Assembly: GCA_002840735.1 (NCBI GenBank)
Contig: PHBY01000008.1
Coordinates: 288,648 to 352,647, forward strand
Direction of reading: 5' to 3'
Origin: Chloroflexi bacterium HGW-Chloroflexi-2
GTDB lineage: Bacteria > Chloroflexota > Anaerolineae > Anaerolineales > Anaerolineaceae
Length of the DNA: 64,000 bases
Positions 1 to 8,315 of this stretch are shown piece by piece; the stretch's first letter is position 1, and the number at the start of each line of letters is the position of its first letter. The notes below the pieces were generated by a model. It did not search any database. It worked only from the letters and a program-made list of their open reading frames with translations, and was not told where the DNA came from. A program made the translations under genes and the position numbers.

Positions 1-76
1 ATACTACTAACAGGTGCCGCCGGCTTCATAGGCTCCAACCTCGCCAGACAGCTCTTATCCCCCAACAATCTTTTAT

Positions 77-172
77 CAGCTCAACAGCTTCTGAAGGACT
101 CCGAGATCTCTTCGAGGAGCAACAGCTCAACAGCTAAAAGAACAGCTCAACAGCTTAACAGCTTAACAGCTT
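77..172 (+). repeat. Octamer array with embedded hairpin-like element inside the SDR gene
   Basis: Units of the type AACAGCTT/AACAGCTC surround a short element (GAAGGACTCCGAG...GAGGAGCAAC) that resembles the elements at 5308-5338 and 7675-7766. The tract has no stop in the gene's frame and adds about 32 Gln/Ser/Leu/Thr-rich residues in the loop after the first Rossmann strand, where relatives have a few residues. Confidence 0.85.
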
Positions 173-787
173 TTATTAGATATAACTCCCGCGCCGACAT
201 CGGCCTCCTCTCTTCCCTCCCACGAGAAATGCTTAATAGCATAGAACTCATCTTCGGCGACCTGCGCGACCCCTCCGCCATCCTCCAGGCCGCCACCGGC
301 TGCGACCTCATCTACCACCTCGGCGCCCTCATCTCCATCCCCTACTCCTACCTCCACCCCGTCGAAACCGTCCAAACCAACATCCTCGGCACCCTCAACA
401 TCCTCGAAGCCGCCCGCCAGCTCAACATCCCCCTCGTCCACACCTCCACCAGCGAAGTCTACGGCACCGCCCTGCGCGTCCCCATCGACGAAACCCACCC
501 CCTCCAGGGTCAATCCCCCTACTCCGCCAGCAAAATTGGCGCCGACAAACTCGTCGAATCCTACTACAGATCCTTCGGAGTCCCCACCATCACCGTCCGC
601 CCCTTCAACACCTATGGTCCGGGACAATCCGCCCGTGCCGTCATCCCCACCATCATCACCCAGGCCCTCACCCAGGACCACATCACCCTCGGCTCCCTCG
701 ACACCCGCCGCGACTTCACCTACATCGACGACACCGTCCAAGGCTTCCTCCTAGCCGGCCAGGCCTTATTGGACGCAGTCCACAATC

Positions 788-927
788 CTCAAAACTCAAA
801 ACTCAATCCTCAATCCTCAAAACTCAATCCTCAACCCTCAACCCTCAATACTCAACCCTCAACCCTCAATCCTCAATCCTCAACCCTCAATCCTCAATCC
901 TCAACCCTCAATACTCAATCCTCAAAA
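788..927 (+). repeat. Heptamer array, 20 units of CTCAANN
   Basis: Twenty contiguous 7-bp units (CTCAATC, CTCAACC, CTCAATA, CTCAAAA) run for 140 bp through the 3' part of the SDR gene. It resembles the short tandemly repeated repetitive heptamers known from cyanobacteria. It lies at a predicted surface loop and shifts the downstream reading frame. Confidence 0.9.
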
Positions 928-937
928 CCGAATTCCC

Positions 938-965
938 CATCAGCCATCAGCCATGAGCCATCAGC
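938..965 (+). repeat. Second heptamer array, 4 units of CATCAGC
   Basis: Four 7-bp units (three CATCAGC, one CATGAGC) follow the CTCAANN array after 10 bp. The ATG at 953, which opens the frame of the SDR C-terminus, lies inside the variant unit. A one-unit loss here would also restore the SDR frame. Confidence 0.8.
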
Positions 966-1250
966 TATTAGGTCAAGAATTCAACCTCGGAACCGGCACC
1001 GAAGTAACCATAGGTCAGGTAACCGAAACCATCCTCCGCATCCTCAACAAACCCAACCTCCCCATCCGCCAGGATCCCACCCGCCTCCGCCCCGCCAACT
1101 CCGAAGTCCTCCGCCTCCTCTCCGACAACACCAAAGCCCGCGACCTCCTCGGCTGGACCCCCACCATCGACCTGGAGGAAGGCCTCACCCGCACCATCGC
1201 CTGGATCTCCGACCACCTCGACCGCTACCGTATAGGCACCTACGAACGAT

Positions 1251-1283
1251 AGCTGTTAAGCTGTTAAGCTATTGAGCTATTAA
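1251..1283. repeat. Octamer array fused to the SDR stop codon
   Basis: The TAG stop at 1250-1252 is continuous with CTGTTAAG units. The opposite orientation of the octamer occurs at 1389-1438, so the two arrays can pair across a loop of about 105 bp. The AT-rich loop holds no gene I can see. Confidence 0.75.
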
Positions 1284-2337: not shown

Positions 2338-2724
2338 TTGGACCCCAACACCCTCTCCTACAAAAACCTTGTTGTCTGGCAAAAAAGTCTGGATTTCGCC
2401 AATGCCATCATAGATCAGGTCGAAAATCTCGACACAAAACGCCATCATTATCGCCTGGTTGAACAAATGGAGGCAGCTGCTACATCCATTCCCATGAATA
2501 TTGCCGAGGGCAAAGGTCGCTATTCCAACAAAGAGCTTGCCCACTTCATGATCATCGCCCGTGGTTCCCTTTACGAAGTGATGACCTTACTAGAAATCTT
2601 CAAGAAAAGAAATTGGATCACCGAAGAAAGCTTCAATCAACTGGAGAAAGAAGCCATCGAAATCACCAAAATGATCAACTCCTTCAACAAATCACTCTCC
2701 ATTCGCAAAACCCCAGCAAAGTAA
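2338..2724 (+). CDS. Four-helix-bundle protein, S23/IVS type, copy 1
   Basis: Small all-helical protein of the TIGR02436/PF05635 family, first known from 23S rRNA intervening sequences. Family marks are LVVWQKSLDFA near residue 11, SIPMNIAEGKGR near 50, ARGSLYE near 74 and LEKEAIEITKMINS near 102. The start is TTG behind AAAGGAG at about 2326. The gene sits alone between two octamer arrays and differs from copy 2 (4100-4486) at about 13 of 128 positions. Its molecular role is unknown; relatives such as Avd of diversity-generating retroelements bind nucleic acid, but no reverse transcriptase is present here. Confidence 0.9.
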   Translation: MDPNTLSYKNLVVWQKSLDFANAIIDQVENLDTKRHHYRLVEQMEAAATSIPMNIAEGKGRYSNKELAHFMIIARGSLYEVMTLLEIFKKRNWITEESFNQLEKEAIEITKMINSFNKSLSIRKTPAK

Positions 2725-3965: not shown

Positions 3966-4069
3966 AGCTGTTAAGCTGTTAAGCTGTTAAGCTTTTTTTA
4001 ACAGCTCAACAGCTTAACAGCTTAACAGCTAAAAATAACAGCTCAACAGCTCAACAGCTTAACAGCTGC
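3966..4069. repeat. Inverted octamer arrays, 28-bp hairpin plus extra units
   Basis: The arm 3966-3993 pairs with 4003-4030 with one mismatch around a T-rich loop. Further CTCAACAG/TTAACAGC units run to 4069. The layout copies the array at 2179-2276 and again precedes a four-helix-bundle gene. Confidence 0.85.
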
Positions 4070-4099: not shown

Positions 4100-4486
4100 T
4101 TGGCCCCCAACACCCTTTCCTACAAAAACCTTGTTGTCTGGCAAAAAAGCCTGGAATTCGCCAACGCCATCATTGATCAGGTTGAAAATCTCGAAACAAA
4201 GCGGCACCATTATCGTCTCATTGAACAAATGGAAGCAGCCGCAACTTCAGTTCCTATGAACATCGCTGAAGGAAAAGGTCGATCCACCAGCAAGGAATTA
4301 ATTCGCTTCATGATCATCGCCCGAGGTTCCCTTTACGAAGTGATGACCTTACTCGAAATCTTCAAAAAAAGAAACTGGATTACCGAAGAAAGCTTCAATC
4401 AACTGGAGAAAGAAGCTGTTGAAATCACCAAAATGATCAACTCCTTCAACAAATCACTCTCAATACCCAAAACCCCAGCAAATTAA
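4100..4486 (+). CDS. Four-helix-bundle protein, S23/IVS type, copy 2
   Basis: Near-duplicate of the gene at 2338-2724 (about 90 percent identical by my reading), with the same TTG start and the same markers LVVWQKSLEFA, SVPMNIAEGKGR and ARGSLYE. The most divergent stretch is after the GKGR motif (STSKELIRFM here against YSNKELAHFM). Downstream of both copies lies a conserved AAAGGAGTAAA that looks like a ribosome site but leads into no gene. The gene sits between octamer arrays at 3966-4069 and 4545-4606. Function unknown. Confidence 0.9.
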   Translation: MAPNTLSYKNLVVWQKSLEFANAIIDQVENLETKRHHYRLIEQMEAAATSVPMNIAEGKGRSTSKELIRFMIIARGSLYEVMTLLEIFKKRNWITEESFNQLEKEAVEITKMINSFNKSLSIPKTPAN

Positions 4487-4544: not shown

Positions 4545-4606
4545 TTAACAGCTTAACAGCTTAATAGCTCAACAGCGAAAATAACAGCTCAACAGCTCAA
4601 CAGCTA
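4545..4606. repeat. Octamer array downstream of four-helix-bundle copy 2
   Basis: Units TTAACAGC, TTAATAGC and TCAACAGC in one orientation, interrupted by short A-rich gaps. It ends just before the promoter of the toxin-antitoxin pair. Confidence 0.8.
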
Positions 4607-4623
4607 AAAAACACCTTCCCCCT

Positions 4624-4689: not shown

Positions 4690-4956
4690 ATGGACACCAC
4701 CATACAAGTACGCGAACGCGGCGTGATCACCCTCCCCGCCGAGCTACGTGATAAATACAAAATCGAAACCGGTCAAATCTTCCGCCTGGTCGACCTGGAC
4801 GGCATCTTCGTCTTCGTCCCCATGGTACCCCTTGTCCCCGAACTGGCCAATGAAATCGAGCGACTGCGCCTCGAAGCCGGGCTGAGCATGGAAGATCTCC
4901 TGGTAAGCTTACGCGAACAACGTGAGCAACACACGACCGAGAAATATGGAAAATAA
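4690..4956 (+). CDS. AbrB/MazE-family antitoxin-like DNA-binding protein
   Basis: The 88-residue protein opens with a swapped-hairpin SpoVT-AbrB domain: IQVRERGVITLPAELRDKY, then ETGQIFRLVDLDG. The C-terminal half is acidic and helical (LANEIERLRLEAGLSMEDLL), as expected of the part that caps a toxin. A GGAG site lies 8 bases before ATG. It overlaps the PIN gene by 11 bp, the classic antitoxin-first layout. The likely role is toxin neutralisation and repression of its own promoter. Confidence 0.85.
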   Translation: MDTTIQVRERGVITLPAELRDKYKIETGQIFRLVDLDGIFVFVPMVPLVPELANEIERLRLEAGLSMEDLLVSLREQREQHTTEKYGK

Positions 4957-5422
4957 ACCGGAAAAACCTCGCATCTTCATCGACGCCGATGTCCTCTTCG
5001 TCGGGTCAGCCTCCCCCCAGCAATACAGCGCCAGCCTGGTCATCTTGCGTATGGCGGAGATCACCCTCATCAAAGCCATCACCAGCCAGCAGGTTATTAC
5101 CGAAGTCGAGCGCAACCTCGAACAGAAATTCCCAGCCGCTCTGGTCACCTTTCGCATGCTCGTCAACCGCTGTCTGCAGGTCCTCCCCGATCCCACCGAG
5201 CAGGAAGTTGACGCCCTCACTGGTCTCGCTGATCCCAAAGACCTGCCCATCCTCGCCGCAGCCGTCAAGTACAACTGCCAGTACCTCACCACCCTAGAAT
5301 ATCCTACAGGACTCCGCACGCACTTAGCGGAGCAACACTTCCAACCCGGCACCCCAAACCTCACCGTCCTCCCCCCCGGAGACACCGTCCAAAGCATTCG
5401 TTATCTTTTGAGTAGTATTTAA
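4946..5422 (+). CDS. PIN-domain toxin-like ribonuclease carrying a repeat insertion
   Basis: Putative Mg-dependent RNase toxin (VapC-like fold) paired with the AbrB-type antitoxin. From the chosen ATG at 4946 it has 158 residues; a GTG at 4922 would add eight. Acidic PIN positions are visible in IFIDADVLF, ITEVERNL and LADPKDLPI. Between YLTT and HFQPG, where relatives have a short loop, the sequence TGLRTHLAEQ is encoded by a hairpin element shared with non-coding repeats at 7675-7766. The insertion is in frame and may or may not spoil activity. The TAA stop continues into GCTGTTAAGC, an octamer remnant. Confidence 0.82.
   Translation: MENKPEKPRIFIDADVLFVGSASPQQYSASLVILRMAEITLIKAITSQQVITEVERNLEQKFPAALVTFRMLVNRCLQVLPDPTEQEVDALTGLADPKDLPILAAAVKYNCQYLTTLEYPTGLRTHLAEQHFQPGTPNLTVLPPGDTVQSIRYLLSSI
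5308..5338 (+). repeat. Hairpin element inside the PIN gene
   Basis: AGGACTCCGCACG...TAGCGGAGCAACAC matches the elements at 7675-7766 except for a few loop bases. CTCCGC pairs with GCGGAG. It is translated in frame as part of the PIN protein. Confidence 0.85.
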
Positions 5423-6404: not shown

Positions 6405-7472
6405 ATGCAAACATCAAACCCTTCAAACTTGCAAAATATTGCCCATTACCTTATTTACAAAAATCATCTGTCTTTCCTGTTCAACAAACTAAAACAAAAC
6501 GACCTTCCATTCCTCGTCCTCAAAGGCTGGTCCTTCATCCCCGACCTTTACCCTGACCCATCCCTCCGCCCCTTTAGCGACATCGACATCCTCATCCACC
6601 CAGCAGACTACCACACCGTCACCACGTGCATGGCAGAGCTTGGCTACTCCGTAAGGGTACTCGTACGGGCGGGTTCCAAACCCGCCCCGTCAGGTTCCAA
6701 ACCCGCTCATCCCCACATCCCCCTCGAAATCACCTTCAGCCACCCCGCCGGCATCCACATCGACCTCCACACCCACCTCCTCACCCTTGCCTGGTGGCAA
6801 CCCGCCTTCCCCATCGACCTCGATCACATCTGGCACACCGCCCAACCCTACCCCGACAGCACCGGCCTCCAACTCCAGCGTCTCTCTCCCGAAGTCACCT
6901 TCCTGCACCTCTGCCTCCACCTCTGGAATCATGAACCCCTCAATCCTCGCTTCCATAGCTACATCGACCTCGTCCTCCTCCTGCGCAAATACACCCCCAG
7001 CATGCATTGGGATCACATCCTCCACCTGGCCGATCAATGGGGCATGCAAAACATCCTTTCAATCGTCACCCAAATCCTTCACCGCGATTACCACACCACC
7101 CTCCCCATCCAAATCAATCCCAAATCTCCCCCCACCTCCCTCCAATACAAATACATCCATTCCCAATTCTCTCAATCCCTAAAATCTCAATCCTCAATAC
7201 TCAATACTCAATCCTCAATCCTCAATACTCAATCCTCAATACTCAATACTCAAACCTCAAATCTCAAACCTCAACCCTCAATACTCAATCCTCCCCCCTG
7301 GCTTTCCTCCTTCCTCCTCCGCCTTGCCCTCATCGACACCCCCACCATCCTCCCCAAACTCCTCTGGAACGCCCTCTTCCCTTCAGCATCCCTGCGCACT
7401 GCCATCCACAACCAACCCCGCACCCTCCTCCAACACTGGGGTACCTACACACACCGCCTCCTCAAGTCCTAA
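6405..7472 (+). CDS. PF14907-type nucleotidyltransferase family protein with two repeat insertions
   Basis: A putative nucleotidyltransferase of the family often found in polysaccharide and peptide-maturation loci. It shows LVLKGWSF, then RPFSDIDILI with metal-binding Asp59 and Asp61, LEITFSHPAG, HIDLHTHL and LHLCLHLWNHE. Two tracts are foreign to the family: GSKPAPSGSKPA, encoded by a hairpin repeat at 6667-6705, and a Ser/Gln/Leu/Asn-rich stretch of 35 residues encoded by 15 heptamers at 7186-7290. Both keep the frame and the C-terminus is intact. The protein is 355 residues. The substrate is unknown. Confidence 0.75.
   Translation: MQTSNPSNLQNIAHYLIYKNHLSFLFNKLKQNDLPFLVLKGWSFIPDLYPDPSLRPFSDIDILIHPADYHTVTTCMAELGYSVRVLVRAGSKPAPSGSKPAHPHIPLEITFSHPAGIHIDLHTHLLTLAWWQPAFPIDLDHIWHTAQPYPDSTGLQLQRLSPEVTFLHLCLHLWNHEPLNPRFHSYIDLVLLLRKYTPSMHWDHILHLADQWGMQNILSIVTQILHRDYHTTLPIQINPKSPPTSLQYKYIHSQFSQSLKSQSSILNTQSSILNTQSSILNTQTSNLKPQPSILNPPPWLSSFLLRLALIDTPTILPKLLWNALFPSASLRTAIHNQPRTLLQHWGTYTHRLLKS
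6667..6705 (+). repeat. GC-rich hairpin repeat inside a coding region
   Basis: GGGCGGGTT-CCA-AACCCGCCC forms a perfect 9-bp stem at 6667-6687, and GGTTCCAAACCCGC repeats directly after it. In frame it encodes two GSKPA units. Confidence 0.8.
7186..7290 (+). repeat. Heptamer array, 15 units of CTCAANN, inside a coding region
   Basis: Fifteen contiguous units (CTCAATC, CTCAATA, CTCAAAC, CTCAAAT, CTCAACC) make 105 bp, a multiple of three, so the host gene stays open. A further CTCAATC lies at 7171. It is the same family as the array at 788-927. Confidence 0.9.
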
Positions 7473-7651: not shown

Positions 7652-7768
7652 TTAACACCTCAACACCTCAACACCTTCCGAAGGACTCCGCACGTTCTTA
7701 GCGGAGCAACACCTCAACACCTTCCGAAGGACTCCGCACGTTCTTAGCGGAGCAACACCTTAACACCA
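7652..7768. repeat. TTAACACC-type octamers with a 46-bp tandem hairpin element
   Basis: CTTAACAC/CTCAACAC units flank two tandem copies (7675-7720 and 7721-7766) of CTTCCGAAGGACTCCGCACG...TTAGCGGAGCAACACCTC. CTCCGC and GCGGAG form a stem. The array lies just before four-helix-bundle copy 3, and a similar TATAATATTC-(A)CTTAACACC junction recurs downstream of that gene at about 8222-8240. Confidence 0.85.
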
Positions 7769-7791: not shown

Positions 7792-8205
7792 ATGCCAGAA
7801 ATCACCACACTCTCCTACAAAGACCTCCTCGTTTGGCAAAAAAGCCTCGAATTCGCCAACAACATCATTGACCTGGTAGAAAATCTCGACACAAAAAGAA
7901 ACCATTACCGTCTGATTGAACAAATCGAAGCAGCATCAACCTCCATACCCATGAACATCGCAGAAGGCAAAGGGCGCTACTCGACCAAAGAATTGCAACA
8001 CTTTATGGTCATAGCCCGAGGTTCACTCTACGAAACCATGACACTCCTGGAAATCTTCAAAAAACGACAATGGATAACTCAAGAAAAATTTATTACACTC
8101 GAAAAAGAAGCCATCGAAATCACCAAAATGATCAACGCCTACAACAAATCAATCTCTAACCGTCAATCATCAACAAACAATACCCAAAAATCCAAAAATG
8201 CATAA
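7792..8205 (+). CDS. Four-helix-bundle protein, S23/IVS type, copy 3
   Basis: Third and most divergent paralogue (137 residues) with LLVWQKSLEFANNIIDLVENLDTKR, interrupted only by conservative changes, SIPMNIAEGKGR, ARGSLYETM and LEKEAIEITKMIN. It starts with ATG behind GAAAGGA. The C-terminal tail is longer and Asn/Ser-rich. TTAACACC-type octamer arrays lie on both sides, where copies 1 and 2 have the TTAACAGC type. Function unknown. Confidence 0.9.
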   Translation: MPEITTLSYKDLLVWQKSLEFANNIIDLVENLDTKRNHYRLIEQIEAASTSIPMNIAEGKGRYSTKELQHFMVIARGSLYETMTLLEIFKKRQWITQEKFITLEKEAIEITKMINAYNKSISNRQSSTNNTQKSKNA

Positions 8206-8232
8206 CATAACACTCATCCTTTATAATATTCC

Positions 8233-8296
8233 TTAACACCTTAACACCTTAACACCTTAACACCTTAACACCTTAACACCTTAACACCTCAACACC
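8233..8296. repeat. Near-perfect octamer array, 8 units of TTAACACC
   Basis: Seven identical TTAACACC units followed by TCAACACC make 64 bp in register. It is the purest array in the window and therefore likely the youngest or most recently expanded. Confidence 0.92.
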
Positions 8297-8315
8297 TACC
8301 CTCTTGGACAAATCA

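Follow-up and report, generated by a model that had tools for sequence, protein, structure and literature searches.

The window analysed here is a stretch of 64,000 nt from a draft genome of 4.1 Mb in 40 contigs (labelled G000), and it contains, on the plus strand at 6405..7472, a gene for an NTP_transf_5 (PF14907) nucleotidyltransferase of 355 aa, recognised as an ORF with a profile match. Two tracts of repeated DNA lie within this gene, in the same orientation. The first, obtained by sequence search and frame reading, is a GC-palindrome tract at 6667..6711 with two copies 21 bp apart: the palindrome GGCGGGTTCCAAACCCGCC occupies 6668-6686, GGTTCCAAACCCGC occurs at 6672 and at 6693, and residues 88-103 of the protein, which the tract encodes in frame, are VRAGSKPAPSGSKPAHP. 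The second, at 7186..7293, is a CTCAAYM-like heptamer array for which TRF reports 15.4 units (87% matches; score 139 at period 7 and 160 at period 21), and which encodes residues 261-297, also in frame. As the initial annotation had proposed, the ORF is open across both repeat types.

The family core had likewise been described as intact, and the PF14907 match agrees: it covers residues 9-226 (E 1.5e-36, 126.6 bits against a Pfam gathering cut-off of 31.2), hence the core of the enzyme is preserved, with the heptamer tract lying C-terminal to it. In an AlphaFold model built on seven sequences (mean pLDDT 74), values below 50 were found at residues 1-4, 87-102 and 254-293, so that structure prediction, recommended earlier as a check on the exposure of the tracts, puts both of them in predicted low-confidence loops, the two long ones. 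The top Foldseek matches of this model were the nucleotidyltransferases MenT1, LnuA and ANT(2''), with E values from 2.8e-4 to 1e-2 and a TM-score to the query of at most 0.36. At the level of the model, a nucleotidyltransferase-like fold is thus confirmed for an enzyme whose activity is a predicted one; the Foldseek search did not indicate the substrate.

Distribution of the two repeat families

Allowing at most one mismatch, the palindrome occurs 7 times in G000, 8 times in G001 and 6 times in G006, three genomes in which the control gave no match; it was present at least once in 21 of 61 genomes, some of the others among which also gave control matches. For the heptamers, CTCAAYHCTCAAYHCTCAAYH had 53 (overlapping) matches genome-wide as against none for the reversed control. 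The strict CTCAAYM triple was restricted to 3 of the 61 genomes, all within the genus, a pattern so strict that it misses the degenerate array of the congener G007 described below. Arrays with a period of 7-8 bp are concentrated around the NTP gene, with 33 in 60 kb; control stretches from five genomes of the same genus, 400 kb in all, had 4.

The sense strand of the array at 7186-7293 has no stops in any of its three frames, and the antisense strand has stops in all three. We also looked for a coding-specific 21-bp register in 13 arrays, 3 of them coding, and found none: the non-coding arrays likewise peak at lag 21 or 14, for which reason we rejected a register arising from units gained in threes. 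Another hairpin repeat, GGACTCCG...CGGAG, is present at 5309-5332, in frame near the C-terminus of a PIN-domain gene (4922-5422), and at 7683-7706 and 7729-7752, in a spacer.

Homologues of the NTP gene

A search of 101 genomes gave matches in 23, and 26 homologues from 22 of these were aligned; L053, L059 and L060 were excluded, as they matched the repeat tract only (L053 and L060 are other heptamer arrays in relatives, and L059 is an array of the window genome itself, in the LegB gene considered below). The orthologue in the congener G001, with 80% identity in the best segment and 77% in the multiple alignment, has at the first site a palindrome array of 4.7 copies with VRAGSNPA-like residues and a period of 24 bp, instead of the 21 bp of the window genome, and at the second site two or three heptamers, after which other sequence follows. 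Since both periods are multiples of three, the gain or loss of whole palindrome units cannot shift the frame.

The repeat-encoded residues are missing at both sites from 24 of the 26 homologues, with the positions of the sites approximate in these 24 distant sequences because of their low identities; one of the homologues (L052) has an unrelated insert near the palindrome site. It had been anticipated that homologues with the same residues, encoded by DNA that is not repeated, would make the tract true protein sequence, and the alignment shows the opposite. This bears on whether the tracts were retained as functional linkers for the sake of their protein sequence. Their being open and placed at domain edges of the model would suit such a role, against which stand the 24 homologues without the tract residues and the fact that the residues at the same loops differ between congeners; we consider it extremely unlikely.

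Repeat inserts in LegB and in a neighbouring gene

The NTP gene shares a sugar-pathway cluster with a LegB-type dehydratase (SDR) gene on the plus strand at 1..1275, whose 5' end precedes the window; its first frame ends at 1275, and a different frame (953-1252) is open for the C-terminal part. By TRF and alignment, this gene has an octamer (AACAGCTY) and hairpin tract in frame at 60..175 (+), in what we call loop 1, and heptamer (TCCTCAA) and CCATCAG arrays at 779..965 (+), in loop 2, the region in which the frame changes. We aligned 30 LegB loci, fetched from the 32 of 101 genomes that match at E 1e-80 or better, and only G000, G001 and G007 have repeat inserts at both loops. The families mostly differ among these three species: loop 1 contains AACAGCTY octamers with a hairpin in G000, GAGCTAC heptamers in G001 and CAACTTT heptamers in G007, and loop 2 contains CTCAAYM-like and CCATCAG heptamers in G000 and G007 and CTATCAGCCATCAG in G001. 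In G003 a short insert without repeats lies at loop 2 and another one elsewhere, and the LegB of L144 has one elsewhere. In G000, a fused sugar-transferase gene (PF02397) preceding LegB contains an octamer-hairpin-octamer unit and a palindrome, both in frame and both missing from G001.

In the window genome LegB is frameshifted within its array region, and its orthologues in G001 and G007 are open. A run of 29 N lies at window positions -28 to 0 with the LegB 5' end on either side of it, which is likely an assembly duplication; as the frameshift is about 0.8 kb from this gap, the 'off' state may be an assembly error. The NTP gene had been presented as the 'on' counterpart of the SDR gene, and of this pairing the frame changes of LegB stand, in the assembly, against open copies in two congeners, with the 'off' state itself in doubt.

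One may further ask whether short-read assembly produced the unit numbers, or the tracts themselves, considering the 40 contigs of the draft and, immediately ahead of the window, the N-run with the duplicated LegB 5' end. Other assemblies of the genus, however, also have tracts at the same loops, so an artefact could account for unit counts and hardly for the tracts as such; as an explanation of the whole we regard it as very unlikely.

Frame keeping and the possibility of switching

Considering the tracts in genes with an orthologue for comparison, 11 of 12 are in frame (5 of 6 in G000, 4 of 4 in G001 and 2 of 2 in G007). If lengths were random and independent, at least 11 of 12 would be expected with a probability of 4.7e-5 and at least 5 of 6 with one of 0.018; given the common ancestry of the 12 tracts, the excess is weaker than these values suggest.

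We consider it probable that the two unrelated, dispersed repeat families are tolerated passengers in loops under selection for keeping the frame, and that they do not form a purpose-built switch. According to this reading, both families, dispersed in a genus of Anaerolineaceae, would have inserted into two unstructured loops of the NTP enzyme and expanded there; the tracts, which are part of the ORF, would be translated and neutral, and selection would hold the summed length of the inserts at a multiple of three. The palindrome tract would change in steps of 21 or 24 bp with no effect on the frame. Because stops are absent from all three sense frames of the heptamer array, it can be read through with any net insert whose length is a multiple of three; gaining or losing one or two heptamers net would disrupt the NTP gene, so that accidental phase variation may occur there. 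Counting against the passenger reading are the out-of-frame LegB, the lack of the coding-specific 21-bp register that had been expected, and the small set of seven sequences behind the structural model. The earlier proposal that a change in unit number would switch the gene off is kept as a possibility for single heptamers, which would shift the frame, and dropped for the palindrome units of 21 or 24 bp, which cannot.

The alternative is phase variation proper, with heptamer slippage toggling LegB and the NTP gene and so varying a surface sugar, presumably by a route of nonulosonic-acid type to judge from the LegB name. It has in its favour a 7-bp unit, not divisible by three, inside an ORF (for the second tract only), a LegB gene out of frame here and open in G001 and G007, and the location of both genes in a sugar-pathway cluster; moreover, a switching population that is mostly 'on' would look identical. 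Against it are the 11 tracts of 12 in frame, the inability of the palindrome tract to switch, the arrays themselves, which are degenerate instead of pure, and the proximity of the LegB array to an assembly gap. On balance we judge it unlikely. The heptanucleotide repeats of Haemophilus, described as simple-sequence contingency loci (PMC2651432, PMC8262952), resemble the present arrays as tandem repeats whose unit number could change expression; they differ from the first NTP tract, which cannot shift the frame, and here each species is represented by one genome.

The closest precedent for the passenger reading is given by the Rickettsia palindromic elements (Ogata et al. 2000, 2002, as reviewed in PMC10969869), palindromic repeats that sit in frame within protein genes unrelated to one another and that the encoded proteins can accommodate. 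The palindrome of the window behaves in the same way, being dispersed over its 7 places in G000 and in frame within the NTP gene. The Rickettsia elements are about 150 bp long with a conserved peptide, whereas here there are tandem units of 21-24 bp together with 7-8-bp arrays, in Chloroflexota. In sister species, enzymes of one operon have taken up repeat DNA of different kinds at the same loops, mostly keeping the frame, and the tract-bearing enzymes constitute a natural record of repeats turning into protein sequence.

Arrays around S23/IVP genes

The window includes three S23/IVP genes, all on the plus strand and each flanked by octamer arrays on both sides: a four-helix-bundle gene at 2338..2724 (arrays 2179-2205 and 2216-2280 on the left, 2784-2816 on the right), a second at 4100..4486 (3966-4067 and 4545-4617) and a third at 7792..8205 (7654-7676 and 8231-8297; PF05635 E 9.6e-33, TIGR02436 E 1.6e-32), which the spacer with two of the GGACTCCG...CGGAG copies precedes. 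For the S23 loci of the genus, a 7-8-bp array was present within 350 bp on at least one side in 19 of 20 and on both sides in 12 of 20, compared with 0.76% and none, respectively, when 5,000 placements were drawn at random in control DNA unmatched for intergenic DNA. In this S23 set L156 and L158 represent a single gene in two pieces, and the array-rich island, where arrays also adjoin non-S23 genes, accounts for five loci; outside the island an array accompanies 13 of 14 loci.

Across the phylum, with the gene placed at fixed locus coordinates in all loci except three, an array was found within 350 bp in 21 of 29 S23 loci and none in the other 8; the period was 7 in 26 of 29 near-gene arrays, and there were 29 arrays in the 20.0 kb near the S23 gene and 16 in the 63.6 kb further out. 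Plasmid records matching S23 at E 1e-8 or better were all cyanobacterial (10 of 10), with a near-gene heptamer array in 8 of 9 distinct loci. Outside Chloroflexota and cyanobacteria, one of three loci, from 2 of the 5 genomes reached, had a called array.

Omitting L158 and L228 as duplicates and L219 as too short, inverted exact matches of at least 14 nt around the S23 gene were found in 8 of 19 loci of the genus, 4 of 28 of the phylum, 6 of 9 cyanobacterial and 0 of 3 other loci, and in 0 of 400 controls. Direct matches were equally frequent in the genus (8 of 19) and present in 1 of 28 loci of the phylum, and on account of this equality and of the 4 of 28 we rejected the idea that inverted arms mark S23 loci in general.

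The arrays near S23 genes have many different unit sequences (L069-L075, L148-L160, L191-L219, L220-L229 and the window genes); L075, a locus of the island, has flanking CTCAA heptamers that resemble the NTP tract, and we infer that the NTP heptamers belong to this class of 7-8-bp arrays. Between LegB and the sugar nucleotidyltransferase gene there is an S23 gene in G001 and arrays only in G000; between the sugar nucleotidyltransferase gene and LegC there is an S23 gene in G000 and a different small ORF in G001. To the extent that sequence comparison can tell, these differences between sister species suggest movement or loss of S23 genes. The small ORF of G001 (L064, at 16.5-17.4 kb of the reverse complement), which we take to resemble GxxExxY proteins, lies between inverted GAACCGC...CTTCG-type repeats.

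Tentatively, and with less than even confidence, S23/IVP genes with their flanking 7-8-bp arrays could be widespread small mobile elements, a class to which the rRNA intervening sequence would belong, with S23 activity creating or spreading the arrays and the in-frame NTP and LegB arrays being solo by-products; S23 genes may instead simply insert at existing arrays. A simple link is opposed by the island arrays next to non-S23 genes, by the patchy occurrence of inverted arms and by the single called array among three loci of other phyla. If true, the mobile-element reading would explain why heptamer repeats are puzzlingly overrepresented in bacteria; the link between S23 genes and arrays offers a testable candidate origin both for these repeats and for the rRNA intervening sequences.

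In the 23S rRNA intervening sequence (IVS) of Coxiella, two or three heptamers, in a strain-dependent number, precede the S23p ORF (PMC4990558). The loci studied here share with it an S23 four-helix ORF, defined by PF05635 and TIGR02436, and heptamers by the ORF. The complementary ends of the Coxiella IVS have a counterpart here in the inverted arms of only part of the S23 loci, and, unlike 23S rRNA IVS, the three S23 genes of the window lie between protein-coding ORFs and not in a 23S rRNA gene, as do the annotated plasmid S23 loci between protein genes. Heptamer arrays have been described for TAACTGA in bacteria (PMC4679880) and for GGGAATC and GGGGAYT in Xanthomonas and Nostoc (PMC4692102). 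To judge from the covered portions of both texts, those arrays are similarly tandem 7-mers, mostly intergenic, with some in ORFs in the stop-free orientation; the unit sequences are other ones here, several families occupy the same loops of orthologous genes, and the association with S23 genes is absent from those portions. A general association of S23 genes with heptamer or tandem repeats was not found in the open-licence literature searched, PMC4990558 being the one paper in which both were seen together.

Two further observations concern the surroundings of S23 genes. Opposed octamer arrays at 2179-2272 and at 3966-4067 are predicted to fold into long RNA hairpins of -44.6 and -48.2 kcal/mol, and in two cyanobacterial type I-D CRISPR operons (L220, L226) an S23 gene lies between cas6 and cas4.
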